Source: Rhodanobacter denitrificans
Lineage (GTDB): Bacteria; Pseudomonadota; Gammaproteobacteria; Xanthomonadales; Rhodanobacteraceae
NCBI RefSeq assembly: GCF_000230695.2
Contig: NC_020541.1
Location: forward strand, 3,286,001-3,350,000
Length of the DNA stretch: 64,000 bases
Direction: 5' to 3'
This document shows positions 33,743 through 50,297 of the stretch, piece by piece. The first letter of the stretch is position 1. Each line of letters begins with the position of its first letter. The translations under genes were made by a program, and so were the position numbers. The notes under the pieces were generated by a model that was given only the letters and a program-made list of their open reading frames with translations, searched no databases and was not told the origin of the DNA.

Positions 33743-33761
33743 GCAGACCCATCAAACGCAT

Positions 33762-33800: not shown

Positions 33801-33835
33801 ACAGGCAATGCCAGGTTACCAAGTCACTCAGCCTC

Positions 33836-36502
33836 TTATCCCTTCGGCGCCGCCCCCTTCACTGCCGTGACGAACGCATCCGGCCGGATGTGTTTCGCAT
33901 ACGCCTGCTGCACGTCCTTCGCGGTGAGCTGGAGATAGTGCTGGCCGGCAATCGTCATCGCGTCGAGCGGCTTGTCCTCGACCGACAGGGTCAGCAACTG
34001 GCCGCCGATCGCGCCGAAGCTGGATTCGCCCAGCGGGATCTGCCGTAGCAGGATGCCCTTGGCGCGCTTGAGCTCGCTGTCGGTGACCGGCGTTTGCTGC
34101 ATCTGTTTCAGATCCTGCACCACGATGGCGCTGGCGGCAGCGACCCTGTCCGGATCGGCACCGAACGACACCGTATAGGTGCTGCGATGCTTGTCCAGAT
34201 CGAACCTGGTGCCCACGGTGTAGACCAGCCCACGGGTATCGCGCAGGTCGTGATAGAGCCGCGACGCGTAGAAGCCGCCGCCGAGCACCTGATTGCCAAT
34301 GTTCAGGGCGAACCGTGCCGGATCGTTCCGGGTCACGTCGATGGTCTGCGCCATCTGCACGCTGTCCTGACTGGCACTGGTATCAGGCACGTTGAACTGG
34401 CTGGGCTTGTTCGCCGGCACCGCGGCGTAATCGACATCCGGTTTCGGGCCGTCGGCTTTCCACGCGCCGAACGCCTGTTCCACAACCTGTTTCGCCTGCG
34501 CCGGATCGACCTTGCCGACGACGACGATGGTGGTCATGTCGGGGCGGAAGGTCTGCCTGTAGTAATGCTTCACCCGAAACATCGTCAACCGCATCACGCC
34601 CTTGGGCGTGGGGTAACGAAGCTGCGGGTCATTCGGCGGCAACAGCGCCATGCCCAGGCCCAGTTGGGTGAGGAAGGCCGGCGACTGCAGCTGCCCCGCC
34701 ACGATGCGGGCCGTCTGCCGCTGTACCACCGAAAAAGCCTGCGGCAGCAGCGCCGGATGCAGTTCATTGTCAGCCAGCAGCGCGATGCCTTCGGCGAAAT
34801 GCACGGACGGTACCGCGAGCGAAAAATTGCTGCCGGCCGACTCGTGTGCACTGATCGCATCCAGTGCCTGCTGCAACTGCAGCCGGTTCATGCTGGCGGT
34901 GCCATAAGGAAACATGCCGTCGAGCAACTGAGCCAGGCCTTCGTCGTCCTTGCCAGCTTGCAGATCCTGGTTGGTCTTGATCTTGCCGAACACCTCCACT
35001 GTGTCGCTGATCGACTCGGGCTGCACGATCAGCTTGATGCCGTTGGACAGCGTGGTCGACACCGGACTGAGGGTGGAGCGTGGCAGCTCAAGCTTGGCGA
35101 ACGCCTGGGCAGCCCAATCAGGTAAGGTCACCGGCTTGTCGGGGCTGGACGCGAAACTCTCCGCACCGCCGAAACCCTTGCCGGCGACCGGCTTGCCCGA
35201 GCTTTCCGGAGTGAGGATCGCGGTCACCGCGTGCGCTGGGTCGAACGTGGCCCTGGCCAGCGCATTCACCGCCGCCGGCGTCACCGCCTCGATCGCCTGC
35301 TTCATCGCGTCGGGCGAGTCCAGTCCCTGGAACGCCAGCGCCTGTGACCACGCGTTGGCCAGTCCGTCGACCGAGTTCTTCTTGAACTCCAGTTCGGCGA
35401 TCGCCTTGCGCTTGGCCGCTTTGACCAGCGCCGGATCGATGCCCTTGGCAGCCGCTTCGGCCAGGATCGACTGCATCTTCGCCAACACAGGCTGCGGGTT
35501 GCCGCCCTTCGGGAAAATGCCCACGGCCATGCCGAAACCCGCCTGCGGCATCAGGTTGGCGCCAAACGTGCCGAACAGCGCGGTGCCGTCCATGCCCATG
35601 CCGAACAAGGCGGCTCGCTGCGAAGCCAGCGCACTGCCCAGCACCAGTCCGGCGGCGTAATCCTTCGACTGCGTCCCGGGCATGCGGTAGCCAAGATAGA
35701 CCGAGCCATACGGGCTGTCGGTGGGCAGCGTGATCGTCTTCGCCTGCACCGGCTTGAACGCAAATGCCGGCCGCGCCGGCAACGTCCCGCGCCCGATGTC
35801 GCCGAATTCGCTCTTCACCTTCGCCAGCGTAGCGGCCGGATCGACGTCGCCGGCAATCACCAGGATCGCGTTGTTCGGCGCATACCAGGTGTCGTGGAAC
35901 GACTTCAGCATCGCCGCCGTGGTCTTCTCGAACGACGCGCGCGTGCCCAGCGCCGAATGCGCATACGGCGTGCCTTCAAACAACTGCGCCTGCAGCTGTT
36001 CGTAAAATTTGTAGGCCGGATTGGACAGGTCGCGCGACACCTCCTGCTCGATCGCGCCACGCTCCTTCGCCCATGCCGCCTCGTCCATGTCCACGCCGCG
36101 CATGCGCAGGCTCTGTACATGCAGCGCAACGTCCAGATCCTGCGACGGCGCGACGAAGTAATACTGGGTCACGCCCTGCGTGGTATCGGCATTGAACGCA
36201 CCGCCCATGTTCGCCGCGATCGCCGCCAGCTGATCCTTCGACAGCCCCGGGCTGCCGCGAAACATCATGTGCTCCACCGCATGCGCCGTACCCGGAAACG
36301 CCGCTGGCACCTCATCCGAACCGGCCAGGTAATTCATCTCCGTGGTGATCACGGGAGCCAGCGCGTCGCGCACGATCACCACGCGCAGGCCGTTGTCGAG
36401 GGTGGCGCGGGTGACGTCCGCGTCGTTGGTCTTCGCCATCGCGGCCGAGGCCACCAGGGCCAGGGAAATCGCGGCGGCCAGTTGTACTACTCGTTGCTTC
36501 AT
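33836..36502 (-). CDS. Periplasmic M16-family zinc protease (pitrilysin type, two-domain)
   Basis: An 888-residue M16 protein with a signal peptide (cleavage near AMA-KT, residue 23). The inverted zinc motif HxxEH is HAVEH at 74-78, and the distal Glu lies in GAIEQEVSRDL. A second, inactive M16 half with the usual FRPDMTTIVVVGKVDPAQ segment follows. Family members degrade peptides up to a few kDa in the periplasm. It is the last gene before the accessory island. ATG 36502 is chosen at the start of the basic signal-peptide region. Confidence 0.9.
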   Translation of the reverse strand: MKQRVVQLAAAISLALVASAAMAKTNDADVTRATLDNGLRVVIVRDALAPVITTEMNYLAGSDEVPAAFPGTAHAVEHMMFRGSPGLSKDQLAAIAANMGGAFNADTTQGVTQYYFVAPSQDLDVALHVQSLRMRGVDMDEAAWAKERGAIEQEVSRDLSNPAYKFYEQLQAQLFEGTPYAHSALGTRASFEKTTAAMLKSFHDTWYAPNNAILVIAGDVDPAATLAKVKSEFGDIGRGTLPARPAFAFKPVQAKTITLPTDSPYGSVYLGYRMPGTQSKDYAAGLVLGSALASQRAALFGMGMDGTALFGTFGANLMPQAGFGMAVGIFPKGGNPQPVLAKMQSILAEAAAKGIDPALVKAAKRKAIAELEFKKNSVDGLANAWSQALAFQGLDSPDAMKQAIEAVTPAAVNALARATFDPAHAVTAILTPESSGKPVAGKGFGGAESFASSPDKPVTLPDWAAQAFAKLELPRSTLSPVSTTLSNGIKLIVQPESISDTVEVFGKIKTNQDLQAGKDDEGLAQLLDGMFPYGTASMNRLQLQQALDAISAHESAGSNFSLAVPSVHFAEGIALLADNELHPALLPQAFSVVQRQTARIVAGQLQSPAFLTQLGLGMALLPPNDPQLRYPTPKGVMRLTMFRVKHYYRQTFRPDMTTIVVVGKVDPAQAKQVVEQAFGAWKADGPKPDVDYAAVPANKPSQFNVPDTSASQDSVQMAQTIDVTRNDPARFALNIGNQVLGGGFYASRLYHDLRDTRGLVYTVGTRFDLDKHRSTYTVSFGADPDRVAAASAIVVQDLKQMQQTPVTDSELKRAKGILLRQIPLGESSFGAIGGQLLTLSVEDKPLDAMTIAGQHYLQLTAKDVQQAYAKHIRPDAFVTAVKGAAPKG

Positions 36503-36844
36503 CGGTGTTGTCCATGTTTGGTTTTGCGGGAAAACGGACGCGGAGTTCACGCCCCCGGGGTGAAACTGCCGACGACCTACGGAACCAGTCGGCGACGAAT
36601 GGAAAAAGTGCGGTATCAGCCCTGCGCTTCATCTCCTATGCGCGAACGCCAGGCTCGCGCCGCGGCAAGAAGCGGCTCGCTTGAAACGCAATACAAAAGG
36701 GACATCCTCAGTAAACCCAGCGCCTCGTGGCCAACCAGAGCGACAAAGCCACATTTTCGGCAAGTGGGGGTCGAAAATTGAAGACACGGCAACGATCAAC
36801 AGACAGCCCCAACATCTGGCATACCGATGGCTTAGACAGCCTAC
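36503..36844. other. 342-base gap at the right edge of the M16 gene, no gene seen
   Basis: No coding region, RNA gene or mobile-element remnant is supported. It should hold the promoter of the M16 gene. A weak stem, ATTTTCG (36753-36759) against CGAAAAT (36772-36778), lies about 70-90 bases downstream of the SelO-like gene stop and could be its terminator. Base composition changes across this gap from the GC-rich core to the more mixed island. Confidence 0.5.
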
Positions 36845-38578
36845 TCACTTGAGGTTGGTCACAAGATCGCAGCACACCACTCCAAGAAAGTCGGGAGCCG
36901 ACGCATCGGCGAACACAATGCCGTCTTCGTCGAGGGTGAAAATCTCCCGACTTTTCTCAGTTGCATGGGACGATTCGTTCGATTCGGCCTTCCATTCCGC
37001 GATGGCGAAAAGTGCGCCGGTATCGATCCGACGAAATAGTGCGTAACCAGCCACCGCATTACGGGCAAAACCGACGGGTAGGGCGTCACTAGGCTCGATC
37101 TTGCCATCACGGCGGTTGCGGCACACGATGTCGGCGACAAGTCGGTCCAAGCTCTCTTGATTCAAGAGGTCACCTTTAAGCTGACGTTCGAGAATGTCGT
37201 AGAGATTCTGCTTTATGCGCTCGCGATAGAGCATCGGCCGGCTCGCGCTGCGCAATCGGGAACGCTCTCGACACAGCGAAGATCCATAATGGCCGCCGAT
37301 CTCAAGACGTTGGAAACGGTGCACAAGCTCATCGCAAAGCGACTTCCATTGCGCCGGCGCGTGTTCAGACCAGAATCGGTCGATATCCCAAGCAATACGC
37401 GGAACCGGGGTACCGTCGAAAATGGTGAAGTGTTCCCGACGATAGTGCGTCAGCGCTCGATTCAACAGCGCCGGCAAGGACGGGTCCAGCCGGAGTGCCT
37501 GCTCAGCCTGCGTCGCTGACCATCCGATGAGGCGCAGCAGCTCGCGGAACAAGATGTGTCGGTAACGCTGCACCACAACCGACGCCATGTGATCGATGGC
37601 TTCTTTGCTCGCCAAGCTCGCATCAACGTAACGGCCCAGCAATTTCGCGTGAGATGTCAGCGCCTGCATGAGCGTAAGCAGTTCATCGCCAGTCGTCGCG
37701 GCACCCCACGTGAGGCTAATCCGCGCCAAGGATGGGACCGCTGTCATACCGCCGAAATCCAATAGCCGGCCATTCAAGGCAATATTGGACGTGGAGTCGC
37801 CACCATGAGGCAGCCGGTGGATAAATGCATACGCCAGTTGCTCGGCCCACGTCAGCCATAAATGTTCGTAAATGGTCGATAACGCGTTCTGACCCCACCG
37901 CTCAATCGCCACGCGAAATGCGTGCTCGACACGCTGCGCGTCTGCATACCCATCGGCAGGATCATCGCTAATGTACGCTCGGGCGCGTTCAAAATGAGCG
38001 GGACGCAGGAATGCAGGCCGAACCAAGAGACAACGTCGCTCGGGATAGGCCCCGCTTTCTAACTTCCATACTTGAACCAGCCCCGTGTCGATGACCGCTA
38101 GCACGGGAACGGTGCCACCCGGGAACTCCGCTCCCGCCAACTCCGAAAATATGACCTCGCGGACGCACTCCTCCAGATAAGCCCCTCCGGATGCATGTGC
38201 ATCGTCGGTCAGCGCACTGACCAACGGAGTGCGACCAATCCCCTTCACGTGATAACTGTTCACAACGGCCGCACGGCCGCTGCCGCCGTTGTGACCAATC
38301 CCTGGGCCGCCGTAGCGATCGGCCACGCCAGTAATGGCGTCGCCCCCCCCTTCTCCATCGGGTGAGATGGCATAGGCGCATGCACACAGCAGATGGGCAC
38401 GGTAGGCAGCAAGCGTGCCACCGCATGCAGCAAAGGCAGGATCATCGCCCATTGCGCGTTGATTGACCCACACCACGCGCGCTTCAGGCAAACGACTCAT
38501 TGAAACCGGTATGTGACCTCGCTGCGCATCGAAAAAGAGATGGGTGTCATTCGGGGAAAGCATGCTCAGATCTCGCAT
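36845..38578 (-). CDS. SelO-like kinase-fold protein with altered catalytic loop; probable tailoring enzyme of the bacteriocin cluster
   Basis: A 577-residue protein aligning by eye with SelO/YdiU protein AMPylases. LPEARVVWVNQ matches LNNARLIWHN, and HVKGIGRTPL matches HLKGAGLTPY (Lys112). CVREVIFSELA supplies the helix-C Glu141. LLVRPAFLRPAHFE matches MRVAPSHLRFGHFE. The loop HGGDSTSN-X8-LLDFGG (258-276) matches HGVMNTDN-X8-LDYGP with exact spacing. The catalytic-loop Asp is Ser264, while Asn265 and the metal-binding Asp274 remain. About 250 C-terminal residues are unassigned. ATG 38578 has GGAGG at seven bases and overlaps the HlyC-like gene by 13 bases. Confidence 0.7.
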   Translation of the reverse strand: MRDLSMLSPNDTHLFFDAQRGHIPVSMSRLPEARVVWVNQRAMGDDPAFAACGGTLAAYRAHLLCACAYAISPDGEGGGDAITGVADRYGGPGIGHNGGSGRAAVVNSYHVKGIGRTPLVSALTDDAHASGGAYLEECVREVIFSELAGAEFPGGTVPVLAVIDTGLVQVWKLESGAYPERRCLLVRPAFLRPAHFERARAYISDDPADGYADAQRVEHAFRVAIERWGQNALSTIYEHLWLTWAEQLAYAFIHRLPHGGDSTSNIALNGRLLDFGGMTAVPSLARISLTWGAATTGDELLTLMQALTSHAKLLGRYVDASLASKEAIDHMASVVVQRYRHILFRELLRLIGWSATQAEQALRLDPSLPALLNRALTHYRREHFTIFDGTPVPRIAWDIDRFWSEHAPAQWKSLCDELVHRFQRLEIGGHYGSSLCRERSRLRSASRPMLYRERIKQNLYDILERQLKGDLLNQESLDRLVADIVCRNRRDGKIEPSDALPVGFARNAVAGYALFRRIDTGALFAIAEWKAESNESSHATEKSREIFTLDEDGIVFADASAPDFLGVVCCDLVTNLK

Positions 38579-39651
38579 GCAAATGCCTCCGAGCGCATCG
38601 CACCCGATACGGTAAAATCGCAAACCTCAGCGTCCAGAGCGGCCAACGACAACCGTCTGCGCGACGACATCAGCGGCCGCATTTCTGTCCCACACTCGGG
38701 ATAAACCCACCAATCGCCTTGCGCGAACGCGGAAAGCTTGTTCCGCAAGATATCGACGCCACCTCGCACGGCCACGGCATCGCCTAGCAAAGCATCCCTC
38801 CCGTCCCTCCATTCAGATAGCTCAAGCTCATGCAACGGCACGGCCGAGATAAGTTCGGCCGATTCGCGCCACAACCAGCTGTAAAAGGCGAGTGGGACAC
38901 CATCCGGCGCGCACAGCAGGCGGTACTGCCTTGTACCCAGCGCATGACGAATCCGGCCAAGAACGGCCGACAATGGCATGCCCGCATAACGCGGCAATTG
39001 CGCAAATAATTCGAGAATCAATCCACAATGGATCGATCTTTCAAGTCCAGCCTTCGCCGAAGAAAGCAGCGGCCAACCCTGATCGCTCCGCAGCCACGCG
39101 GCTTCGTAGACATGGTCGGCCCGCGATTGGTGTCGCAGCAACGCGGCGCTGTCGCGCCAATTGATTCGCTTCGCGATCCGCCGTCCTCGCTTGTAACGAA
39201 AATATGCAAGGGTGTCACAATCGGGCGGCAGCATGTCGTACAGCGCGGCCAAGACGTTGGGTAGTTCGCCCAAGCCAGCGCGAAAATCGAGTATCCAGAT
39301 TTTACCTTCGCCGGAAAGCCGATCCGCGCTCAAAACATCCGGTCCAAACCTCAGCATGTCACTTTCCGACAAGGCAGGCACCCTCGTCCACCATACATAA
39401 CCGCAATTACGTCCGAAACGATCGAAGTGGAGTGCGAGTTGGTGCAACTCGATGGCGCGAATAAGGCGCTGGTAATGCCAGCCAAGACAACGCGAAGCCA
39501 TCGTAGGATGCTCGGCGAGTAGGTTGAACGCCAAACCAAGCATTGCCCCTTTCTCGTTTTGCAGCGGCTCGGCCAAATGAGTCAAGGACAGCATCTGTGT
39601 AATGGTCAACATGCGATCAGGCTCTTGGCAAAAGAGGGAGTGATGATTCAC
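38566..39651 (-). CDS. Tandem HlyC-like acyltransferase (MchD/MceI-type), probable peptide-tailoring enzyme
   Basis: A 361-residue protein with two HlyC-like halves. Half one: GAMLGLAFNLLAEHP, AIELHQLALHFDRFGRNCGY, then WILDFRAGLG, which matches WFIDWIAPFG with the conserved Asp (Asp122). Half two: GLILELFAQLPRYAG, RQYRLLCAPDGVPLAFYSWL and LLGDAVAVRGG (Asp291). The HlyC catalytic His after SP appears replaced (Met51 and Tyr222). HlyC enzymes acylate protoxin lysines; the microcin relatives MceI/MchD attach siderophores with a partner protein. GTG 39651 overlaps the glycosyltransferase stop (GTGA); ATG 39612 is the alternative. Confidence 0.72.
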   Translation of the reverse strand: MNHHSLFCQEPDRMLTITQMLSLTHLAEPLQNEKGAMLGLAFNLLAEHPTMASRCLGWHYQRLIRAIELHQLALHFDRFGRNCGYVWWTRVPALSESDMLRFGPDVLSADRLSGEGKIWILDFRAGLGELPNVLAALYDMLPPDCDTLAYFRYKRGRRIAKRINWRDSAALLRHQSRADHVYEAAWLRSDQGWPLLSSAKAGLERSIHCGLILELFAQLPRYAGMPLSAVLGRIRHALGTRQYRLLCAPDGVPLAFYSWLWRESAELISAVPLHELELSEWRDGRDALLGDAVAVRGGVDILRNKLSAFAQGDWWVYPECGTEMRPLMSSRRRLSLAALDAEVCDFTVSGAMRSEAFACEI

Positions 39652-40832
39652 GACGCAATGCAGGCAGGCGCGACAAGATCCAGGTAAGTCGTGTGAATTG
39701 CCGCCGCCGCATGGCACCACGACCACGACGCTACCTCTTGCTGCGCCAATAGTGCCTGCTGCGCGGCCTCTTCCGGCCGCGTCAGACAGCGCACGATAGC
39801 ATCGGCCAGTGCGGTACTGTCGGCGGCATTGACGCATTGCACGTGCCTAACCATTTCGCTCACTCCGCAAGCATTAGATAGCACTACAGGAACGCCGGAG
39901 CGAATGGCTTCCAAGGCACCAATCCCAAAGGGTTCGGATAGGGATGGCATGACGTAAACCGCACTTTGTGCGAGTAAATCCTCGACGCCTTTGGCGTCTA
40001 GGAATCCTGGAAAATCCACCCGGTCCTTGAGGTCGCGAGCAAAACACAAAGTTTTCATCATGGCCAACCGATCACCTTCCCCCGCCATGACAAAGCGTGT
40101 GTCCGGCAAACGACGGGCAACCTGGTGTGCCGCCTCGATGAAATTGGACGGACCTTTTTGCCAAGTCACTCTACCGATGAACGACACCACGCGATCCTTC
40201 TTCGATCGGAGCGGCGATCTCCACGGATGATGATCGGCCGCGTTGTGAATCACTTTCACTTTCTCTGGTGCAATGCCGTAACGCTCGATGATAAGTCGGC
40301 GTGTACGCCCGCTGACGGCCAGTACACGATCGGCCGCGATCAGACCGCGACGTTCAATGTCGTCAATCGCTGGATGCATGCGCTCTCCCGCTCGTTCCAC
40401 TTCGGTGGAATGGACATGCGCCACCAAGGGACAGCCCAGCCGCTCCTTTGCACGAATGGCCGCAGGAAACGTGAGCCAATCGTGCGCATGCACCAGGTCG
40501 GGAGTGGCACCGAGCACGCTCATCACGTTGTCGATATGTCTGGCGTAGTTCAGCGCAGCGCGCACTGACTCACCTTGGTAGGCTCCTTTGTCGATCGACA
40601 AGGTCGACGCCTTCAACCTGCCATCAGGTTGCCCACGCGTCCATGGCTCGATATCACACGCCGCAATGAGGCGGCTCTTGCCAGATCGCTCGCCGCCCCA
40701 TAGCCTCGGCAGGATAAAACTGATGGAAATGCCTTCCAGCGCGCTCAGGCCCTCCAGCAACCCTTGGCAGGCCACCCCCAGACCGCCAGTGATTCGCGGG
40801 GGTAGCTCCCAACCCAACATGAGCACGTTCAT
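39648..40832 (-). CDS. GT-B glycosyltransferase (GT4, glycogen-synthase-like)
   Basis: A 394-residue glycosyltransferase. The N-terminus MNVLMLGWELPPRITGGLG is the acceptor-domain start seen in GT4/GT5 glucan synthases. VHAHDWLTFPAAI follows, and the nucleotide-sugar domain has VVSFIGRVTWQKGPSNFI and the E-X7-E motif in EPFGIGALEAIRSG. It would transfer a sugar with retention of configuration. ATG 40832 overlaps the GH13 stop by four bases (ATGA) and has AAGGGG upstream. Its place between a GH13 enzyme and an acyltransferase suggests a role in making a sugar moiety for the peptide or for a carrier molecule; that is inference. Confidence 0.85.
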   Translation of the reverse strand: MNVLMLGWELPPRITGGLGVACQGLLEGLSALEGISISFILPRLWGGERSGKSRLIAACDIEPWTRGQPDGRLKASTLSIDKGAYQGESVRAALNYARHIDNVMSVLGATPDLVHAHDWLTFPAAIRAKERLGCPLVAHVHSTEVERAGERMHPAIDDIERRGLIAADRVLAVSGRTRRLIIERYGIAPEKVKVIHNAADHHPWRSPLRSKKDRVVSFIGRVTWQKGPSNFIEAAHQVARRLPDTRFVMAGEGDRLAMMKTLCFARDLKDRVDFPGFLDAKGVEDLLAQSAVYVMPSLSEPFGIGALEAIRSGVPVVLSNACGVSEMVRHVQCVNAADSTALADAIVRCLTRPEEAAQQALLAQQEVASWSWCHAAAAIHTTYLDLVAPACIAS

Positions 40833-42436
40833 GGAAGACCCCTTCCCCGACAATCCATATCTGGGTACCAAGCCGAACCGTCGTCGGTTTCCAGTAGCAC
40901 GAAGCCATCAGCATTCAGCGACACCCGACCATCTTTAACGACACCGCGCCAGCCACCATAGGCGTCGCGCACCTGTTGCCCATCGGCGAACATCTCACCG
41001 ACCGGCAGCGACAGATATCCATCGACCGCCATCGCTACCAACACCCTATCCCCCGTCGTGTCGAGTCTTGCAAACACGTAAGGGCAATCAAACAACTTAA
41101 GGTGAACACCATTCGCGACGGCGGGATGTCTTGTTCGAAAGCGCGAAAGCTTGCGCCAGTGCATGAGCAATTGCGCATCAGTCGCGCCCCAATTCATCGG
41201 CGAACGCGCCGCTTGGGCAGGATCCTGCTCGTTCGGAGCCCCCGGCAACCGACCCGTTTCATCACCGTAAAACAGGAGCACGCCACCGGGAGCGAGCATC
41301 AATGCTGCACTGCCTTCTCTGATCTTTCGCCGATCGAGCAGATGCGTATCGTGCGAGGAAACGTAGGAAACGAAGCTTAGATCGGAATGCTCGTGCAATT
41401 GCGCCGCGTAGTCCTCGTACAGCGCATCCAGATGTATACCGCGCTCAATGTCCTCCTGAAATGAGAAATTGAGCAGGCTGTCAAATCCGCAATCGAAGTA
41501 GCTGCTCCGCTCTACGCCATGGCCAAAGACTTCGCCGAGCAACCAGAAGTGCGGCGTCGCGCCGGAGCGATCGCGCTGCTGTTCCCACCACTCCCGCTTC
41601 GCCTGCACGCAGGCGTGCTTGAGCTGCGCCCACGTTTCCGGTTCCACATGCCTAGCCGAGTCGCAACGAAATCCGTCAAAACCATATTCACGCACCCAGT
41701 CGGAAAGCCATTTGACGAGATAGCCACGCACGGTGGTATCGGGCATATCCATAGCCCTGGTATCAGCTTTGTTCCTCAGGAATATAGGCAGAGATACGAA
41801 GCGCTCGTCTTCTGTTTTGAAGTCCGGAAGACCGTGTAGCAACATGGTGTAGTCGTCGCAGCCGCCCGGCGAATAACCTGGCAAGTCACAGCGAACCCAA
41901 TCAGGTCCCCACCAATCGTTGAACGATGAACTGGATCGATTCATATAGTCGTAAAAATTCTTCGGCTCAGCCGCTTCCCATCCGGGATCCCAGCCACTGA
42001 TTCCGACATTTCGGAATGTGGAAGGCTCCGGATAACCTGGATGATTCAGCACCACATCGAGCAGCACGCGTATACCGACGGCATGCGCACAATCGACCAG
42101 ATCGCGCAGATCGGCTTCGTTACCGAAGCGCCTATCCATGACCGTGTAATCGAGCGTGAAATACCCGTGATAGGCATAGTGACAAAAATCCTTCCCTGCG
42201 CTCGGAACCCAACCAGCGATCTGCTCAAAAATGGGCGATATTAAAATCGTATTCACCCCGAGGTCGGTGAACCAGCGATCCCGAATCTTCCGCGTTACAC
42301 CATCGATAGTTCCGCCGTAAAATGCACCCATATCACAATCGTCAAGCACAGCCGACGCCGCGTTGCGCGACATCTTCATTCCACTCCTACAGAATCTATC
42401 GATAATGACGTGATAGATGATCGGTTGAACTCGCAT
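40829..42436 (-). CDS. GH13-family alpha-glucan enzyme (amylase-like)
   Basis: A 535-residue cytoplasmic GH13 enzyme with no signal peptide. Catalytic residues are complete: region I DVVLNH, nucleophile Asp259 in GFDGFRCDSARH, acid/base Glu302 in LLGEVFG, and Asp363 in VSSHDTHLLD. The start IIYHVIIDRF and AFYGGTIDGVTRKI match maltodextrin-acting members. It heads the tailoring group and overlaps the glycosyltransferase start. The ATG at 42436 lacks a clear ribosome site; the frame is open to a TTG at 42493. It could prepare a malto-oligosaccharide or act as a transglycosylase; neither is shown. Confidence 0.85.
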   Translation of the reverse strand: MRVQPIIYHVIIDRFCRSGMKMSRNAASAVLDDCDMGAFYGGTIDGVTRKIRDRWFTDLGVNTILISPIFEQIAGWVPSAGKDFCHYAYHGYFTLDYTVMDRRFGNEADLRDLVDCAHAVGIRVLLDVVLNHPGYPEPSTFRNVGISGWDPGWEAAEPKNFYDYMNRSSSSFNDWWGPDWVRCDLPGYSPGGCDDYTMLLHGLPDFKTEDERFVSLPIFLRNKADTRAMDMPDTTVRGYLVKWLSDWVREYGFDGFRCDSARHVEPETWAQLKHACVQAKREWWEQQRDRSGATPHFWLLGEVFGHGVERSSYFDCGFDSLLNFSFQEDIERGIHLDALYEDYAAQLHEHSDLSFVSYVSSHDTHLLDRRKIREGSAALMLAPGGVLLFYGDETGRLPGAPNEQDPAQAARSPMNWGATDAQLLMHWRKLSRFRTRHPAVANGVHLKLFDCPYVFARLDTTGDRVLVAMAVDGYLSLPVGEMFADGQQVRDAYGGWRGVVKDGRVSLNADGFVLLETDDGSAWYPDMDCRGRGLP

Positions 42437-42617
42437 ATTCGGTATATATCGCTCTATAAATATCTTAAAATTGCGTATCCGCCCTTCAAGCAACCATTCG
42501 GCGAACGGCGGGCATGCGAATGCCCTCCCTCCGCATCAGGCCCCGTGATAGCGGATCAAAGTCAGGAACCGAGCAGCATCAGGCATCATTGCTGCCGTAC
42601 ATCCATCGAACGTGCGG
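42437..42617. promoter_or_regulatory. A/T-rich gap upstream of the GH13 gene, possible promoter
   Basis: This 181-base gap between the candidate immunity gene and the GH13 gene is strongly A/T-rich near the GH13 start. It reads, on the minus strand, TTGAAG followed about 20 bases later by TATTTATAG. That could be a promoter for the four tailoring genes, separate from the exporter/peptide transcript. The spacing is not ideal, so the call is tentative. Confidence 0.35.
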
Positions 42618-43007
42618 TCACCGCTTGCTGTAGATGAACATATAGTTGACTAAGCCTGTTCCTGAAATTAGTGGAGCGATGAACATCAGATCCCAGCTTA
42701 CGTCCGCGCTTCCGCCGCACGCGAAGTAGATTGCGTAAATAAGGAGGTTTAAGAACGGCACTAAATGTAATATTGCTAAAGTGATCGGCCATTCGATTTC
42801 TGAAATTTCCGCCGGAGGGTATTTAGCACCTCCCCTCAGCAGCTTGTAAGCGATGCCGGTCGCAAAAACAAGCATCGAATAGGTGAAAAATTGCTCGAAC
42901 TGCTGTGCTCGGAAACTATGCAGCAAAAGCAGTCCTGCGATCCATGTTCCAAGGTTTACATAAAAAGAAATGACAACAAGCAGTTTGTGCTTTATCACTT
43001 TTTGCAT
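42618..43007 (-). CDS. Small four-helix membrane protein, candidate bacteriocin immunity protein
   Basis: A 129-residue hydrophobic protein with four predicted membrane helices (about residues 8-28, 38-56, 71-93, 104-124) and basic ends (MQKVIKHK, YSKR). No family is recognised. It lies directly downstream of the precursor-peptide gene, behind an intrinsic terminator. This is the classic place for an immunity protein of a membrane-active class II bacteriocin or microcin. It is markedly A/T-rich. The ribosome site is weak (GAG seven bases upstream). Confidence 0.6.
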   Translation of the reverse strand: MQKVIKHKLLVVISFYVNLGTWIAGLLLLHSFRAQQFEQFFTYSMLVFATGIAYKLLRGGAKYPPAEISEIEWPITLAILHLVPFLNLLIYAIYFACGGSADVSWDLMFIAPLISGTGLVNYMFIYSKR

Positions 43008-43025
43008 TTTCGTACTCGAATAAAA

Positions 43026-43052
43026 ATCCGCAGGAGATCAACTCCTGCGGAT
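43026..43052 (-). terminator. Intrinsic terminator/attenuator after the peptide gene
   Basis: On the minus strand ATCCGCAGGAG, a five-base loop and CTCCTGCGGAT form a perfect 11-pair stem, followed directly by a run of T (TTTTTATTCG). It starts 17 bases after the precursor stop. It should end most transcripts there, giving high peptide mRNA and a lower level of the downstream membrane-protein gene. Confidence 0.9.
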
Positions 43053-43068
43053 AGACTACCGGCATCGA

Positions 43069-43332
43069 TCAGCTGGTGAGCTGGTCACCGATGTATCCAC
43101 CAACGGCACCACCGACCAGCATGCCATAGGTTTCACCAATCGCGTATCCAATCAACGCACCGGGCAGAGCGCCCACTCCGCCGAACATAGCGCCGATCCC
43201 GGCACCGATCGCCGCACCAGCCGAGCCACCACCCACTTCGCCCGCGACGCCGCCAACGACCGTTCCGACGGCGGCACCACCTGCACTGCTGCCGCTCACC
43301 GCATCAATTTCATGCACGGACAAAATTTCCAT
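43069..43332 (-). CDS. Bacteriocin precursor with double-glycine-type leader (colicin V/class II microcin-like)
   Basis: An 87-residue precursor. The leader MEILSVHEIDAVSGS fits the LSxxElxxVsGG rule: Gly14-Ser15 at -2/-1, and Val12, Ile9 and Leu4 at -4, -7 and -12. The predicted 72-residue core is Gly/Ala-rich with glycine zippers (GAAIGAGIGAMFGGVGA), has no Cys, is slightly acidic and ends in QLTS. The second ATG (43332) was chosen because GGAG lies six bases upstream; the first (43344) would add MELK and has none. It lies 21 bases after the C39-ABC exporter gene and before a terminator. Confidence 0.85.
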   Translation of the reverse strand: MEILSVHEIDAVSGSSAGGAAVGTVVGGVAGEVGGGSAGAAIGAGIGAMFGGVGALPGALIGYAIGETYGMLVGGAVGGYIGDQLTS

Positions 43333-43353
43333 CTTTAACTCCATTTGGTTGTT

Positions 43354-45546
43354 TCACAAAGCTCCCCTTTGCATGGGATCAACCGCAGCCATATTTTGAT
43401 GGTCAGCGATTAATTCGGTTCTCCCTGCATCCACGAGAATCACCTTGGGGATGCTGGAGATAGTTTCTGGACGATGCGCGATAACTAGGCGAGTCATTTT
43501 CATGCGCTGGATCGCGGCATTGACGCGATGCTCATTGTCGATGTCAAGATGACTGGTGGCCTCATCCAGCACCAGCAATTTGGGGCGGCGATACAGCGCC
43601 CGCGCCAGGATCACCCGCTGCTTCTGACCACCAGACAGAGATGATCCCATGTCGCCCACCAAGCTCTGGTAGCCCATCGGCATCGCCGCAATATCAGCGT
43701 GTATCGCAGCCATTCGGGCAGCCGCCTCCACCTTAACTGGCGTGGCTTGGCAATCAAAGAAACTGATGTTATCGAGGATAGAGCCAGCAAAGAGTTGGTC
43801 ATCCTGCATCACCGCTCCGACCTGCTGGCGGTAGGTATCCAACCCCAGATTGCGGATATCGGTGCCCCCGAACTTCACCGCCCCCTCAGTCGGCTCAAGC
43901 AATCCAAGCACGATCTTCGCCAGCGTACTCTTGCCGCAGCCGCTGGGACCGACGATTGCCACCGACTCGCCTGCATCAATACGCAAATTGCAGTCCTTCA
44001 GAATCCACGGCTCGCCTTCCGCGTAGCGGAAGCTAACACTGCACAGTTCGATACTGGCCTCGGGGGTCGGGCCATTCCACGTCGCACCGGCCATCTTCTC
44101 CGGCGCGGTCAGCGCGATATCCGCCACTCGCTCTGCATGCAGCTTCAGCATGCGGAAATCCACCCACTTGTCGATCAGGCCGGCGGCGCGACTGCAGAAC
44201 TGGTCGGCGTAAGCGATGAAGGCAATCAGCATGCCGGCGGAAAATGCGTTCTTCAGCGCCAACGTGGCGGCGATCCAGATCATTACTACACGACCTATAC
44301 CGAACATCAGTTGGTTACTGAGAGTAAAGGCGATGCCCAGGCGCTGGATGCCGATGATGCAGTTGGCGGTGCACACCGTCGCATTGGCATAACGCGACAG
44401 CCGCTCATCCTGCTTGTTGGCCAGCTTGATCGGCATCGCGCCGCGAATGGACTCCAGCAACTCGCTCTGCTGACGCGCCGCGTAGACGATCTGCTCTTCG
44501 TTGGCGCGCCGCAGCGGGTTGAAGAACGCCCAGCGGATCAATCCGTACGCAACGAACAAACTCACCACCAACACGGTGAGCCAGATGCTGTAGAACGCCA
44601 TCACAACGAGGGTGACCGTTGACATCAGACCATCCAGCAGCGAGCCGATGAACTGCGTGGTCAGGGTCTGCTGGATGGTCTGGATCGAGCCAAAACGCGA
44701 CACCACATCGCCCACATGCCGCTTTTCAAACCAGTCCAGCGGCAGTCGCATCAGGTGACCGAACAAATTGCTCGCCCATTGCACGTTGAGTGTGGCGCCC
44801 AGCCATGTAACAGCCCACGAACGTGCCGCCGTGACCAGCGCCGAAAACACGGCTATGCCGATGAAACCCAAGCCGAGCAAACTCAGCAGATCGTGATCGG
44901 CCGAGACCATGACCTGATCCAGCACCCATTGCAGATAGAAAGGTGCCGCCAGCGCGAACACTTCCAGCGCCAATGCCAGCAACAGGATCTGCAGCAGCGC
45001 CGGTACCAGCCCGCGCACGCGGCCGGTGAGTGCGCGCATGGAAACGGCCTGACGCGCATGCACGGGTTCGAAGCTGGCCGACGGGCTCAGTTCCAGCGCC
45101 ACGCCAGTGAAGTGTTCAGAGACTTCACGACGACTCAGCTTGCGGATGCCGCGTGCCGGGTCATGGATGACGATGCGGCGCTTGCCGACGTGTTTGAGCA
45201 CCACAAAATGGTTGAGATCCCAGTGCAGCAGGCATGGTGCCTTGAGCTTGGCCAGATCGTCCATGTCCAGCTTGAGCGGGCGACAGGCAAAGCCGAGCTG
45301 GCCTGCCATCGCCATCACTCGCGCCAGAGTGACGCCCTTCAGCGAGGTGGAAAATTTGCGGCGCAGTCCGGCCAGGTCGACATCGTGGCCGTGATAGCTG
45401 GCCACCATCGCCAGGCATGCCAGACCGCATTCGGCCGCCTCGGTCTGCAACATCATCGGCAGGCTGCGCGACCAACCGAATTGCAGCGCTGCGCGATAGC
45501 CGCGCACGGGCTTGCGGGCTCGCCCACGCTGGATACCATCAGCCAC
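43354..45546 (-). CDS. C39-peptidase ABC exporter (PCAT, CvaB/MchF-like)
   Basis: A 730-residue exporter. An N-terminal C39 protease (Gln34, Cys40 in QTEAAECGLACLAM; His in DLNHFVVLKHV; Asp in IHDPARG) cuts double-glycine leaders. Six membrane helices follow, then an ATPase with GPSGCGKST, LSGGQKQR and VLDEATSHLD. It couples leader removal to export with a HlyD-type adaptor and a TolC-like channel (not in the window). GTG 45546 has GGAGG eight bases upstream and overlaps the adaptor gene by eight bases; a GTG at 45555 is the alternative. Confidence 0.94.
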   Translation of the reverse strand: MADGIQRGRARKPVRGYRAALQFGWSRSLPMMLQTEAAECGLACLAMVASYHGHDVDLAGLRRKFSTSLKGVTLARVMAMAGQLGFACRPLKLDMDDLAKLKAPCLLHWDLNHFVVLKHVGKRRIVIHDPARGIRKLSRREVSEHFTGVALELSPSASFEPVHARQAVSMRALTGRVRGLVPALLQILLLALALEVFALAAPFYLQWVLDQVMVSADHDLLSLLGLGFIGIAVFSALVTAARSWAVTWLGATLNVQWASNLFGHLMRLPLDWFEKRHVGDVVSRFGSIQTIQQTLTTQFIGSLLDGLMSTVTLVVMAFYSIWLTVLVVSLFVAYGLIRWAFFNPLRRANEEQIVYAARQQSELLESIRGAMPIKLANKQDERLSRYANATVCTANCIIGIQRLGIAFTLSNQLMFGIGRVVMIWIAATLALKNAFSAGMLIAFIAYADQFCSRAAGLIDKWVDFRMLKLHAERVADIALTAPEKMAGATWNGPTPEASIELCSVSFRYAEGEPWILKDCNLRIDAGESVAIVGPSGCGKSTLAKIVLGLLEPTEGAVKFGGTDIRNLGLDTYRQQVGAVMQDDQLFAGSILDNISFFDCQATPVKVEAAARMAAIHADIAAMPMGYQSLVGDMGSSLSGGQKQRVILARALYRRPKLLVLDEATSHLDIDNEHRVNAAIQRMKMTRLVIAHRPETISSIPKVILVDAGRTELIADHQNMAAVDPMQRGAL

Positions 45547-46816
45547 GGGCGGCACCTCCCGCCAGGTGATGCACCATGCCGTAGAGCGGCTCGAACACCC
45601 ACTCGATCAGGCGGCGACGCTCCATCAGGATGTCGGCCTCCAGCGCCATGCCGGGTTTCACCGGCTCCTGCCTGCCATAGGCCAGCACCTGCTGGCTGTC
45701 CAGCTTCACCTGGATGCGATACAGCGGCTCCTTTGCCTGTTGTCCCACCAGCGCGCCGATCTCGGATGGCGAGAGCGCGCTGCGCGATATGTCGGTCACC
45801 CGCCCGTACTGCTGCCCGAACTTCTGGTATGGGAACGCCTGATAGCGCAGCACCACCCGACTGCCCGCCTCGATGAAACCGATGGCCCGGCTGGGCACCA
45901 ACAACTGCGCTTGCAGGACAGAGCCGGAAGGCAGGATGGACAGCAACGGCTGCCCCGCGCTTACCATCTGGCCTTGCTTCAGCAGCACGGTGGAAACCAC
46001 GCCATCGCGAGGCGCGCGCAGCACGACCGCGCGCTGCATTTCGTTCTGCGCCATGGACTGGGTCAGCGAGGCAAGTTGCCGCTCGGTGTCGTTGCGCTTG
46101 CTCACATCATCCAACGGCAGCTGGGCCAGCTGTTGCCGGGTGGCGTCGAGTTGTTGTTGGGCATCGAGCTGTTGGCGTACGAGCGCCTTGTATTGCGCCT
46201 GCGCGTCCAACACGGTTGTTTCCTGCTGCTGGATCTGCACCGCCGAGACATAGCCTTTGGCGGCAAGCGGCTGTATCCGCGCCAGCAACTGCTGGTTGCT
46301 GATCACCTGTTTTTGCTGGATCGCCAGCTGCCCGGCGATCTGGGTCAGTTGCGAATGCAGCAGCGCGGCTTTGGCACGGAATGCATCGGCCTGCTGCTCC
46401 GACAATTGCTTCTGATTGAGCAGATCGGCCTTCAGGCGAGAACGCTGGATATCCAGTTGCTGCCCGACCAGTGCATGGGTGTCGCCCAGTGCTGCGCTGT
46501 CCTGTTCGCTGGAGAGCTTGAGCAACACGTCGCCTGCCTTGACGACCTGACCATCGTGTACCTCTACGCGGGCAACCGTACCGGCACTGGGCGCAGCGAT
46601 ATTGAGCAGCCCCGCGCTTGGCACCAGCTGCCCGGTGACGGTTTCGCGGCGGGTGTAATGACCGAAGAAGAGGAACAGCAGGATGGCTGCAGCCAGCGCC
46701 AGCGCCAATGCGGTAAGCAGCCAGCGTGACAGCGGCGCGGCCACAATGATCGAGCCAAGCCATTCCCCACGCCGCGCATCCACGACTTCCTGTCTGAACA
46801 ACGGTATCCCTACCAC
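45539..46816 (-). CDS. HlyD/CvaA-type membrane fusion protein
   Basis: A 425-residue periplasmic adaptor. It has one N-terminal membrane helix (about residues 30-52), lipoyl-type halves around GTVARVEVHDGQVVKAGDVLL and VLRAPRDGVVSTVLLKQGQMV, a long Gln-rich coiled coil between them, and a C-terminal beta domain. It bridges the C39-ABC exporter and the outer-membrane channel. The start is GTG 46816 with GGGGAG six bases upstream. It is the first gene of the exporter-peptide transcript, and its promoter must lie in the 101-base gap shared with the divergent regulator. Confidence 0.92.
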   Translation of the reverse strand: MVGIPLFRQEVVDARRGEWLGSIIVAAPLSRWLLTALALALAAAILLFLFFGHYTRRETVTGQLVPSAGLLNIAAPSAGTVARVEVHDGQVVKAGDVLLKLSSEQDSAALGDTHALVGQQLDIQRSRLKADLLNQKQLSEQQADAFRAKAALLHSQLTQIAGQLAIQQKQVISNQQLLARIQPLAAKGYVSAVQIQQQETTVLDAQAQYKALVRQQLDAQQQLDATRQQLAQLPLDDVSKRNDTERQLASLTQSMAQNEMQRAVVLRAPRDGVVSTVLLKQGQMVSAGQPLLSILPSGSVLQAQLLVPSRAIGFIEAGSRVVLRYQAFPYQKFGQQYGRVTDISRSALSPSEIGALVGQQAKEPLYRIQVKLDSQQVLAYGRQEPVKPGMALEADILMERRRLIEWVFEPLYGMVHHLAGGAARG

Positions 46817-46880
46817 AAGCTACTCCCCAGTCGCTTGACGATCTCTGCGCCGGGTTAAGATGCCGGGGCAGACGGCTTTA

Positions 46881-46895
46881 TACTCAGACTGAGTA
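46881..46895. promoter_or_regulatory. Perfect palindrome TACTCAG-A-CTGAGTA, candidate operator of the bacteriocin cluster
   Basis: A 7-1-7 perfect dyad in the gap between the divergent regulator and adaptor genes, 23 bases before the regulator ATG and 65 bases before the adaptor start. It is flanked by A/T-rich blocks (CTTTA before, GATAAATC after). A Cro-like homodimer is a natural ligand, so the regulator would control both itself and the cluster. Confidence 0.7.
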
Positions 46896-46917
46896 GATAA
46901 ATCAACAGGGTGAGGAT

Positions 46918-47331
46918 ATGCAGGCAACCCTCGAATTGTTCGAACGATACAAATTACGCATCGGCGCACACGCCGACAGTGCAGGCGCGGCGGCGCTCGG
47001 CGTGAAAAGCCAAACCGTAAGCAATTGGCGCACGCGCGGCAGTCAGGCCGAGCCGTGGCTGATCGAGAAGATGTGCAACGCGCTCGGCATTGATACCGCC
47101 GAGTGGTTACTGCGGGTGCAGATGGAGCAGGCACCCAGCGCCTCGAACAAGCTGGTATGGCGCCGTGTCGGGGAACGACTGGGTTACAAGGTCGCTGGCA
47201 TCGGCGTGGTGCTGGTTTCCAGCGTCACCTCCCTTGAAGGATGCTTCACGCAGTCAGCGGTCGTCCTCGCTGAGCCGTTGATGCAGGCTGTGCGATTGTT
47301 TGCCCAGTTGGCGGAAGGGCTGCCTGGCTGA
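46918..47331 (+). CDS. Cro/C1-like HTH regulator (DUF3693-like) with hydrophobic tail
   Basis: A 137-residue protein. The N-terminal helix-turn-helix DSAGAAALGVKSQTVSNWRT resembles phage-type regulators of the DUF3693 group, with ALGIDTAEWLLRVQMEQ after it. The C-terminal part has one hydrophobic stretch (VAGIGVVLVSSVTSLEG) that could be a membrane anchor and then an amphipathic end. GTGAGG lies just before the ATG. It is divergent to the exporter operon, with a palindrome between them. A membrane-tethered regulator would be unusual; the hydrophobic segment could instead be a dimer core. Confidence 0.72.
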   Translation: MQATLELFERYKLRIGAHADSAGAAALGVKSQTVSNWRTRGSQAEPWLIEKMCNALGIDTAEWLLRVQMEQAPSASNKLVWRRVGERLGYKVAGIGVVLVSSVTSLEGCFTQSAVVLAEPLMQAVRLFAQLAEGLPG

Positions 47332-47517
47332 GCTTGTGGTGGCAGAGCAGCTTTCTCCGCGAAAACCGAAGCGTGCAGAATCCGCATGCCCGCAAATCAC
47401 CTCGCGGCTGACCTTGCGCTGACCGCGCCCGACCATCTTTATTGAGCCCGATGCCATGGATTGGTTAAGCTCCTAGAGCTCTACCGCCTGTTGCGCAGGC
47501 TTCCTCCGGGGATTTTT

Positions 47518-50139
47518 TTGAGCGCCACCGCAGCAAACCACAACAGCCGGTATCCGCTGCTCACGGCGATCGTGCTCGCCCTGATCGTGGCCGCGATGAA
47601 CATCGGGCTGTGGTGGTGGGGCAACTACCCGCGCGGGCCGGAGGATTGGCACGGCAAGGTCGGCGGCTATGCGCTGTCGGTGTTCCAGCGCTACCAGAGC
47701 CCGTTCAAGCTGGATTACCCCAGCGACGAGGAGATCGCCGCCGACCTCAAGCTGCTGCACCGGTACACGGACCACATCCGTACCTACACGATGCAGCAGA
47801 ACCCGCAGCTGTATCGGTTGGCGCAGAAGGAAGGCCTGAAGGTGATGGCCGGCGCCGAGATCGACAAACGCCTGGACAACAACGAGCGCGAGCTCGACCT
47901 GCTGATCGCCAAGGCGCGTGCCTACCCGGACACCGTCACCCGGGTCATCGTGGGCAACGAGGTGCTGTTCCGCAACGACCTCGCGCCCGAGCAGATGATG
48001 GCCTACCTGGACCGCGTGCGTGCCGCCGTGCACCAGCCGGTGTCGATCGCCGAGCCGGACTACATCTGGCTGAAGTACCCCGAGCTGGCCGAGCACGTGG
48101 ACTTCATCACCATCCACCTGTTCCCGTTCTGGAACGGCGTGCCGGTCAGCGGTCCCTCCGGCAACCCCCATCCGGCGCTGGACCAGGCGCTCGGCGCCTA
48201 CCAGCAGATCCGCCAGCGCTACCCGGACAAGCCGGTGGTGGTCGGCGAAATCGGCTGGCCGTCGAACGGCGACCGCCACGAGTACGCCGACCCGTCGGTT
48301 TCCAACGAGGCGATCTTCATCCGCGACTGGATGAACGCGGCCAAGACTGCGCACATCGACTACTACCTGCTCGAAGCGTTCGACCAGCCGTGGAAGGAAA
48401 ACCTCGGCGAAGGCCGCACCGGCGCGTACTGGGGCATGTTCAACGCCGATCGCCAGCTGAAGTTCCCGCTGACCGGCCCGGTGGTCGAGGACACCTCGTG
48501 GCCGTGGAAGGCGATCGCGGCGAGCCTGTTGGCGCTGCTGCCGATGATCTTCTTCGCGCGCCGTTTCAGCCGCTTCAAGCTGATGGGGCGGTTCTTCTTC
48601 GCCGCGCTGATCCAGCTGGCCTGCGGGCTGATCGTGTGGTCGGCCACGTTGCCGTTCAACTTCTACCTGAGCTGGGTCGACTGGACCATGCTCACGCTGC
48701 TGTTCCCGGCGCAGATCGCGATCCTCGCGATCCTGCTGATCAACGGCTTCGAGTTCACCGAGGTGCTGTGGCGGCGCGACTGGATCCGCCATGCCGGCAT
48801 GCTGACGCCCGATCCGCCCGAGAAGCAGCCATTCGTGTCGATCCATCTGGCCTGCTACAACGAGCCGCCGGAGATGGTGATCGTCACGCTCGATTCGCTG
48901 GCCGCGCTGGACTACGCGAACTTCGAAGTGCTGGTGATCGACAACAACACCAAGGACCCGGCGGTGTGGCAGCCGGTGCAGGAATACTGCGAGAAGCTCG
49001 GCAAGCGCTTCCGCTTCTTCCACCTGGCGCCGTGGCCGGGCTTCAAGGCCGGCGCGCTGAACTTCGGCCTGAAGGAAACCGACCCACAGGCCGACGTGGT
49101 GGCGGTGATCGACGCCGACTACGAGGTGCGCGCCGACTGGCTGGCCACCCTCACCGGCCATTTCCACGACCCGAAAGTGGCCGTGGTGCAGTGCCCGCAG
49201 GCGCACCGCGAGTTCGAGCACAACCGCTTCCGCCGCATGACCGCGTGGGAGTACGACGGCTTCTTCCGCATCGGCATGCACCACAGGAACGAGCGCAACG
49301 CGATCATCCAGCACGGCACCATGACGATGGTGAGGCGCAGCGCGCTGGAAGGTACCGGCGGCTGGTCGGAGTGGACCATCTGCGAGGACGCCGAACTCGG
49401 CCTGCGCCTGATGCATGCCGGCTACGAGCTGGTCTACGTCGACGAGCTGATGGGCAAGGGCCTCACCCCGGCCGACTTCAAGGCGTACAAGAGCCAGCGC
49501 TATCGCTGGGCGTTCGGCGCCATGCAGATCCTCAAGGGCCGCTGGCGGTGGATGACGCAGAAGGGTCCGCTCTCGGCCGGCCAGCGCTTCCACTTCCTCA
49601 CCGGCTGGTTCAGCTGGTTCGCCGACGCGCTGCATTTGATCTTCACTCTGATGGCGCTGTTCTGGACCGCCGGCATGGTGGCCTTCCCGCAGTACTTCAG
49701 CCTGCCGATGCAGCTGTTCCTGATCCCGGTGATCGGCTTCTTCTTCGCCAAGGCGATCTTCGGCATCGTGCTGTACCGTGCCCGCGTACCCTGTGGCTGG
49801 TACGACACGCTGATGGCCTCGCTGGCCAGCATGGGCCTCAGCCATGCCATCGCCCGCGGCATCCTGCACGGCCTCACCCGCGAGAAGACCTCGTTCGTGG
49901 TCACCGCCAAGAGCCGGCGCCTGGGCGGCAGCAACTTCGCCGCGTTCGCGCCGGTACGCGAGGAGCTGCTGATGGCGGTCGCGCTGATGCTGTGCATCGT
50001 CGGCATGGCGCTGGGCTACGGCACGCGCTACATCGAGGGCACCTTGTGGATGTTCATCCTCGCCGCGCAGTCGATCCCGTACGTCTCGGCGGTGATCGGC
50101 GCATGGATCGCGCACAAGTCAGGCGACAAGGCCGGCTGA
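47518..50139 (+). CDS. ndvB: NdvB-like beta-glucan synthase: GH17-like domain fused to membrane GT2
   Basis: An 873-residue inner-membrane enzyme. Helix one is followed by a periplasmic GH17 glucanosyl domain (VIVGNEVLFRNDLAPEQMMAYL, the Glu of VVGEIGWPSNGDRHEY). Two or three helices follow, then a processive GT2 domain with VIDADYEV, TICEDAELGLRLMHAG and QRYRWAFGAMQI, and further helices. This is the layout of cyclic beta-1,3(1,6)-glucan synthases (Bradyrhizobium NdvB, Pseudomonas PA1163). The start is uncertain: TTG 47518 has GGGGA five bases upstream, and the frame is open to a TTG at 47461. Confidence 0.87.
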   Translation: MSATAANHNSRYPLLTAIVLALIVAAMNIGLWWWGNYPRGPEDWHGKVGGYALSVFQRYQSPFKLDYPSDEEIAADLKLLHRYTDHIRTYTMQQNPQLYRLAQKEGLKVMAGAEIDKRLDNNERELDLLIAKARAYPDTVTRVIVGNEVLFRNDLAPEQMMAYLDRVRAAVHQPVSIAEPDYIWLKYPELAEHVDFITIHLFPFWNGVPVSGPSGNPHPALDQALGAYQQIRQRYPDKPVVVGEIGWPSNGDRHEYADPSVSNEAIFIRDWMNAAKTAHIDYYLLEAFDQPWKENLGEGRTGAYWGMFNADRQLKFPLTGPVVEDTSWPWKAIAASLLALLPMIFFARRFSRFKLMGRFFFAALIQLACGLIVWSATLPFNFYLSWVDWTMLTLLFPAQIAILAILLINGFEFTEVLWRRDWIRHAGMLTPDPPEKQPFVSIHLACYNEPPEMVIVTLDSLAALDYANFEVLVIDNNTKDPAVWQPVQEYCEKLGKRFRFFHLAPWPGFKAGALNFGLKETDPQADVVAVIDADYEVRADWLATLTGHFHDPKVAVVQCPQAHREFEHNRFRRMTAWEYDGFFRIGMHHRNERNAIIQHGTMTMVRRSALEGTGGWSEWTICEDAELGLRLMHAGYELVYVDELMGKGLTPADFKAYKSQRYRWAFGAMQILKGRWRWMTQKGPLSAGQRFHFLTGWFSWFADALHLIFTLMALFWTAGMVAFPQYFSLPMQLFLIPVIGFFFAKAIFGIVLYRARVPCGWYDTLMASLASMGLSHAIARGILHGLTREKTSFVVTAKSRRLGGSNFAAFAPVREELLMAVALMLCIVGMALGYGTRYIEGTLWMFILAAQSIPYVSAVIGAWIAHKSGDKAG

Positions 50140-50297
50140 TGCCGCCCGTCGGGACGGCCGTGGCCGCCCCGGCGAAGCCGCCCCTGGCCCTTCGACTCCG
50201 ATGCCGCGGCAACCGGCCCGCGTTCATGCCAAGCCGACCTCGATCTGGCTAAGCTGCCCTCCCCCCGTGAAGATGCCCCGAGGATGGAACCCCACGT

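Follow-up and report, generated by a model that had tools for sequence, protein, structure and literature searches.

The closest described relatives of the cluster reported here are the class IIb microcins, in which the protein pairs MceIJ and MchCD make the link between a peptide and a glucosylated siderophore, their precise functions being stated as unknown (PMC7472721). The glucosylated group of microcin E492 (MccE492) sits on the carboxylate of the C-terminal Ser (PMC7680869), and in this class a Gly/Ser-rich motif of some eight residues marks the C-terminus (PMC10233263). MchC was described in 2012 as a distant branch of SelO with HlyC gene neighbours, with Vibrio, Xanthomonas and Cellvibrio named (PMC3281104), and an eLife paper of 2024 on class IIb microcins reports Enterobacteriaceae only (PMC11634061); all papers are cited here for individual passages. 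The natural peptides studied with this ligase pair carry siderophores. Here we analyzed a cluster at positions 36845..47331 of a 64,000-nucleotide stretch of Rhodanobacter denitrificans (NC_020541.1, GCF_000230695.2; forward strand 3,286,001-3,350,000; the whole stretch is called the window), in which a pair of this type stands beside a GH13 and a GT4 enzyme.

We propose, at a probability of about one half, that the GH13-GT4-HlyC-SelO module builds a short alpha-glucan and attaches it covalently to a leader-bearing, Gly-rich peptide before export by C39/HlyD proteins, every step being predicted from homology and context. The proposal rests on the gene content, the recurrence of the module, a separate SelO branch, the lack of condensation domains of non-ribosomal peptide synthetases (NRPS), the kept catalytic residues and the comparison of the exporter site.

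Gene content of the cluster

All nine open reading frames (ORFs) of the set described in an earlier, sequence-only reading of this DNA were found in the window in the order given there, and the ORF list and profile searches placed them in the expected families. The terminator noted behind the precursor gene was also recovered (minus strand, 43052-43026). The features were as follows.

46918..47331, plus strand: divergent helix-turn-helix (HTH) regulator of 137 amino acids (aa); Phage_CI_repr HTH at 23.3 bits, barely above the cut-off of 22
45539..46816, minus strand: HlyD-type adaptor, 425 aa; HlyD_3 9e-23, and type_I_hlyD 1.1e-46, under its curated cut-off
43354..45555, minus strand: C39 peptidase-ABC exporter, 733 aa; Peptidase_C39 2.5e-37, ABC_tran 9.8e-34, ABC_membrane 7.1e-33
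43069..43344, minus strand: precursor with a double-glycine-type leader and a Gly-rich core, from the sequence, Gly-zipper matches and a leader scan
43026..43052, minus strand: intrinsic terminator 3' of the precursor gene, an 11-pair stem plus a T-run
42618..43007, minus strand: small membrane protein, 129 aa, with three hydrophobic segments and no family match; candidate immunity protein
40829..42493, minus strand: GH13 protein, MalS-like; Alpha-amylase 3.2e-24; alternative start ATG at 42436
39648..40871, minus strand: GT4 glycosyltransferase, 407 aa; Glycos_transf_1 5.3e-34
38566..39612, minus strand: two-domain HlyC-like protein, MchD/MceI type; HlyC 6.5e-11 in two stretches; listed ORF extends to 39837
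36845..38578, minus strand: SelO-like protein, MchC/MceJ type, by tblastn and profile; listed ORF extends to 38623

The four lower genes are tightly packed: the GH13 and GT4 ORFs overlap, and the HlyC gene comes after GT4 and overlaps the SelO gene. ORF calls were mechanical, and the HlyC ORF as listed probably begins too early; the ATG at 39612, past the GT4 stop, is the likelier start.

Recurrence of the GH13-GT4-HlyC-SelO module

SelO-like matches, in counts that include the own or centre genome, occurred in 15 of 398 genomes of the host order, while a class-wide search at E 1e-10 returned the own genome only (1/369). Around Duganella radicis they were found in 12/74 genomes at the genus level, 4/294 at the family level and 3/399 at the order level, and a further 16 loci came from a genome-contig search; the host-order, class-wide, Duganella-family and Duganella-order searches scored the best 3-4 candidates per genome. 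After 53 loci had been put in context and five duplicates removed, 48 distinct SelO-like loci were obtained.

An HlyC gene was present at all 48 loci (weakest match 4e-7, at L112), within 200 base pairs at 45 of them. The sequence-only reading had asked whether homologues of the four lower genes occur mostly away from C39 exporters. For SelO they do not, since a C39 or HlyD gene was found at at least 33 of the 48 loci, a lower bound with some contigs being short; two of the seven strong GH13 relatives, however, lie in NRPS clusters without SelO or HlyC.

GH13 was present at six loci (the window, L039, L099, L100, L101, and L104). All six carry a C39 exporter, HlyD and GT4, the GT4 of L101 being on L116, and the gene order differs among them. 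Because the GH13, GT4, HlyC and SelO genes recur together in other genomes, their association is more than chance, and chance co-location was rejected as unlikely. Two HlyC domains were found at five of the six GH13 loci (fused at four, in two adjacent genes at the fifth) versus none of the 42 others, although these five fall within one clade; a Fisher test of this contrast takes no account of kinship and is given no weight here. In a tree of 50 proteins, seven SelO proteins that go with GH13, drawn from five of the loci, formed a single clade (100/100), the L104 SelO was in another part of the tree, so that the GH13 label needs two changes, and the enterobacterial MchC proteins formed a third group. 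This indicated that the window SelO gene lies outside the siderophore-microcin branch.

In L099 (7995-13370) and L101 (8391-13820) the SelO-like gene and the two-domain HlyC gene are each present twice, and these copies split into two branches of the GH13-associated clade. A glycosyltransferase match was found at 14 of the 48 loci, or 15 counting L101. At L108 (9625-19780) and L112 (3151-10650), GT4, GT2-type and DUF6492 genes lie between or beside SelO and HlyC, and L108 also holds a dTDP-glucose-dehydratase-like gene and a hexapeptide transferase; each of the two stretches forms a more extensive glycan operon around this ligase type. Radical SAM genes accompany SelO/HlyC at L021, L022 and L113, there with a GT2 gene, and at L104, with GH13/GT4.

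It had been left undecided whether relatives of this cluster were already described. The passages of PMC3281104 cited here do describe MchC as a branch of SelO with an adjoining HlyC gene. For a GH13/GT4-coupled MchC/MchD cluster no description was found, as judged from titles, abstracts and passages, with most subscription papers outside the search. Thus, the MchC-SelO kinship and the HlyC neighbours have been known since 2012, and what is new is that the GH13 and GT4 pair recurs with SelO/HlyC.

Sugar enzymes

The sequence-only reading took the GH13/GT pair as pointing to a glucan- or sugar-based group, and the structural matches agree with a glucan. The best solved structure for GT4 was an alpha-maltose-1-phosphate synthase (6tvp, 1.6e-18). 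For GH13 it was 8im8 (4.4e-106), and the closest structures were MalS and maltohexaose-producing amylases. The GH13 protein lacks the N-terminal ~190 residues of MalS, the match beginning at MalS residue 190. Three GH13 proteins were checked and none showed an N-terminal hydrophobic segment; the enzyme is therefore probably cytoplasmic. The GH13 catalytic triad is kept at 6/6 loci. The glycosyltransferase E-x7-E motif is kept at the five of six loci read in frame; at L100 it was not read but the profile match stands.

Among the 74 Duganella-group genomes, 62 gave a match to GH13 at E 1e-60. Seven matches score 642-987 bits, well clear of the rest, which reach 238 bits at most. Five of the seven are at SelO/HlyC loci and two are beside NRPS genes. 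L131 (genome G1105) combines GH13 and GT4 with an NRPS gene and genes for a MacB-type exporter and a phosphopantetheinyl transferase, and a polyketide synthase (PKS)-like gene lies upstream (L134). In L130 (genome G1194), GH13 directly follows an adenylation-carrier module beside a four-module NRPS gene (L133). Both proteins are full-length relatives of the window GH13 (722 and 783 bits), and no SelO or HlyC match was found in L130 or L131. As all seven strong relatives are in such loci, the GH13 form appears, in this 74-genome sample, to be a component of peptide natural-product clusters, whether or not SelO/HlyC is present.

Ligase pair

Its sequence matches assign the window's SelO/HlyC pair to the MchC/MchD type. 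The SelO-like protein matched SelO (PF02696) at 19.1 bits, below the curated cut-off of 22.8, and by tblastn it matched 21 plasmid records, several of which are annotated as 'MchC protein' or SelO-family. The HlyC-like protein matched HlyC (PF02794) at 42.7 bits, above the curated cut-off of 25, in two stretches, and had two domains by local profile. The profile comparison proposed in the earlier reading linked both proteins to solved structures: a profile of 17 SelO-like relatives reached SelO/YdiU (1.9e-9), and that of the HlyC-like relatives reached ApxC (2.5e-15).

Across 23 SelO-like rows, Lys112, Glu141 and Asp274 never vary and Asn265 is found in at least 90%; all four align with SelO-type residues of the adenosine triphosphate (ATP) site. 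In the window and Duganella proteins both domains retain the HlyC Asp column; the HlyC His column is not retained in the profile, and the same holds for the annotated Pantoea protein adjoining MchC. A tandem-HlyC query matched 2/233 genomes of the host family, the second weakly (20.7 bits).

Precursor peptide

The precursor has a 19-residue leader of the double-glycine type, MELKMEILSVHEIDAVSGS, and, if cleaved after the GS pair, a core of 72 residues that is Gly-rich, has Gly-zipper matches and contains no Cys. The core ends in GGYIGDQLTS, without the C-terminal Gly/Ser-rich tail that is a feature of class IIb microcins. The sequence-only reading saw a clue in the C-terminal Ser. At the other five GH13 loci the candidate precursors end in G (L039), R (L099 and L101), F and W (L100), and F (L104, where the precursor is a candidate only), and the Ser was rejected as evidence of attachment. 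Related proteins are encoded near the candidate precursor at L039 (3613-4650), L099 (4750-5874) and L101 (15891-17012), the one in L099 being TraB/PrgY/GumN-like by Pfam.

Genomic site and sequence context

The cluster site (window 36551-47460) is between an M16 peptidase gene and a glucan-synthase gene. It is free of the cluster in three of the six congeners fetched (L076, L077, and L079). In L075, which has the highest M16 identity (89%), the site holds HlyD (85%), C39 (83%) and three small double-glycine ORFs, and no tailoring enzyme was found at this exporter site. L078 and L080 have other inserts with exporter genes there. This suggested cassette-like behaviour of the module behind an exporter already in place; this comparison alone does not distinguish its gain from its loss.

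The GC content was 49-61% across 37,000-44,999, versus 63-71% at 30,000-35,999 and 47,000-51,999. Terminator-like sites as a class were only slightly in excess in the region (14, against a shuffle mean of 10.7, sd 3.4), and a sigma-70 scan gave two promoter-like sites, fewer than in shuffled sequence (5.1). Neither a tRNA nor an Rfam family at gathering score was detected in the window. PADLOC returned only a GlgB-type match, to GH13, and a defence system was dropped as a candidate.

Proposed function and alternative explanations

In the proposed pathway, GT4, like maltose-1-phosphate synthase, would make or extend a glucosyl chain from a nucleotide sugar, and the apparently cytoplasmic GH13 would trim or transfer that chain to set its length. 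The SelO-like protein would activate the peptide with ATP, perhaps as an adenylate, and the two-domain HlyC-like protein would complete the joining of peptide and sugar, much as MceI/MceJ fasten a glucosylated siderophore to microcin E492 at its C-terminal carboxylate. The C39 exporter would take off the leader and export the conjugate, whose sugar may be an uptake tag for a bacteriocin-like peptide. Synthetic maltotriose conjugates enter Gram-negative cells via the maltose pathway (PMC6311466, passages cited), and therefore a sugar tag could work. A wider version, tentative and on the whole unlikely, is that the peptide with its malto-oligosaccharide enters target cells by maltodextrin uptake, as siderophore microcins do by iron receptors, and that MchC/MchD-type pairs generally join glycans of many kinds to exported peptides, siderophore microcins being one special case.

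Several observations weigh against the glucan-attachment proposal. GH13 is absent from 42 of the 48 SelO/HlyC loci and a glycosyltransferase match, by five narrow local profiles, from 33, which means that in many cases the pair must join some other group. GH13 is also found where SelO/HlyC is missing (L130 and L131), and proteins of this family can simply hydrolyse. Five of the six GH13 loci are one clade, which leaves only two independent recurrences with SelO/HlyC. Precursor sequences and C-terminal residues are not conserved across the six loci, and thus no linkage site can be named. In addition, the HlyC-like profile does not retain the His of the ApxC SPLH stretch.

Some of these observations would fit two separate modifications, in which GT4, aided by GH13, glycosylates side chains of the core roughly as in glycocins, and SelO/HlyC adds another group, such as a fatty acyl group or adenosine monophosphate. 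HlyC proteins proper transfer fatty acyl groups, most SelO/HlyC loci manage without GH13, and the GH13 form works without SelO/HlyC in the two NRPS clusters. However, the precursor has no Cys, unlike glycocins, the doubled HlyC tracks GH13 (5/6 versus 0/42, though inside one clade), and the only studied members of the pair join a glucosylated group to a peptide (PMC7472721, passages cited). We regard this explanation as unlikely, but as one to be taken seriously. It is improbable that GH13 and GT4 are carbohydrate-storage genes lying here by accident, with the peptide modified, if at all, by SelO/HlyC alone. Both families mostly serve glycogen and maltodextrin metabolism, and the GH13 matches in 62 of the 74 genomes are mostly weaker and represent other GH13 genes; however, the pair recurs at 6/48 loci with altered gene order, and within those 74 genomes the strong GH13 relatives were found only in peptide natural-product clusters.

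The exported peptide might also be modified without being a bacteriocin, as a signal, surface or matrix peptide. Its Gly-zipper core, the lack of a known activity and the wide variation of the sister candidate precursors in sequence and length would allow this, but C39 export, the small membrane protein adjoining the precursor and exporter-site cargo that varies between congeners fit bacteriocin loci, and we consider it quite improbable. An unusual siderophore microcin, with the pair joining to the peptide a glycosylated siderophore whose genes lie elsewhere in the genome, is very improbable, even though the MchC/MchD-type pair, the C39 exporter, the double-glycine leader and the C-terminal Ser would all suit it. 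No NRPS condensation domain (PF00668) was found in the complete genome, a single contig of 4.2 Mb, with controls positive in 4/14 genomes, and an NRPS-made siderophore was rejected; NRPS-independent siderophores were not searched for. An EntB query gave no match in the genome, with no positive control in that search. The cluster contains no IroB-type glycosyltransferase and no Fes/IroD-type esterase, the search for IroB being limited to the cluster. Given the lack of a condensation domain and of a Gly/Ser tail, and a SelO branch separate from enterobacterial MchC, the cluster does not qualify, within the tests made, as a siderophore microcin. The earlier description of an analogous but distinct system was thus upheld, as an MchC/MchD-type pair with glucan-type enzymes in a genome without condensation domains.

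If the glucan-attachment proposal is true, the same ligase type working with alpha-glucan enzymes would mark the pair as a means of coupling glycans to peptides more generally, and would offer a genetically encoded route to sugar-tagged peptides. Ribosomal and non-ribosomal peptide clusters would be linked through one common sugar cassette, and a short starch-like sugar on a secreted, likely antibacterial, peptide is predicted to be a new kind of tag. The individual roles of MceI/MceJ-type proteins become directly testable, because the sugar partner here could be made by two enzymes.

Comparison with known systems

Glycocins, which have a Cys-bridged precursor and a dedicated glycosyltransferase, differ from the window locus in that its precursor has no Cys. 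The NRPS/PKS clusters (L131/L134 and L130/L133) share full-length GH13 relatives with the window, in L131 with an adjoining GT4, but are non-ribosomal assembly lines, with no SelO/HlyC match in L130 and L131. Synthetic maltotriose conjugates (PMC6311466, passages cited) share the malto-oligosaccharide as a Gram-negative uptake tag, which is only predicted here, but are made by chemists and are not bacterially made peptides.

Closer to the window are the SelO-family MchC relatives outside Enterobacteriaceae (PMC3281104), which share the SelO-like protein and the neighbouring HlyC gene, whereas the MchC section of that paper mentions no GH13 or glycosyltransferase genes and the string 'glycos' is absent from its main text. 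The Vibrio/Photobacterium plasmid clusters (L021 and L022) share HlyC, the SelO-like protein, HlyD, the C39 exporter, a small double-glycine ORF and a glycosyltransferase; however, theirs is GT2 instead of GT4, they have a radical SAM gene and a single HlyC, and GH13 is absent. The class IIb siderophore microcins (MccE492, MccH47, and MccM) have in common with the window locus the double-glycine leader, C39/HlyD export, the MchC-type (SelO-like) and MchD-type (HlyC-like) proteins, and a glycosyltransferase and a hydrolase within the cluster. The window locus differs from them in its missing Gly/Ser tail, its separate SelO branch and a genome without NRPS condensation domains; its HlyC is doubled, and GT4 and GH13 stand in place of the siderophore enzymes.

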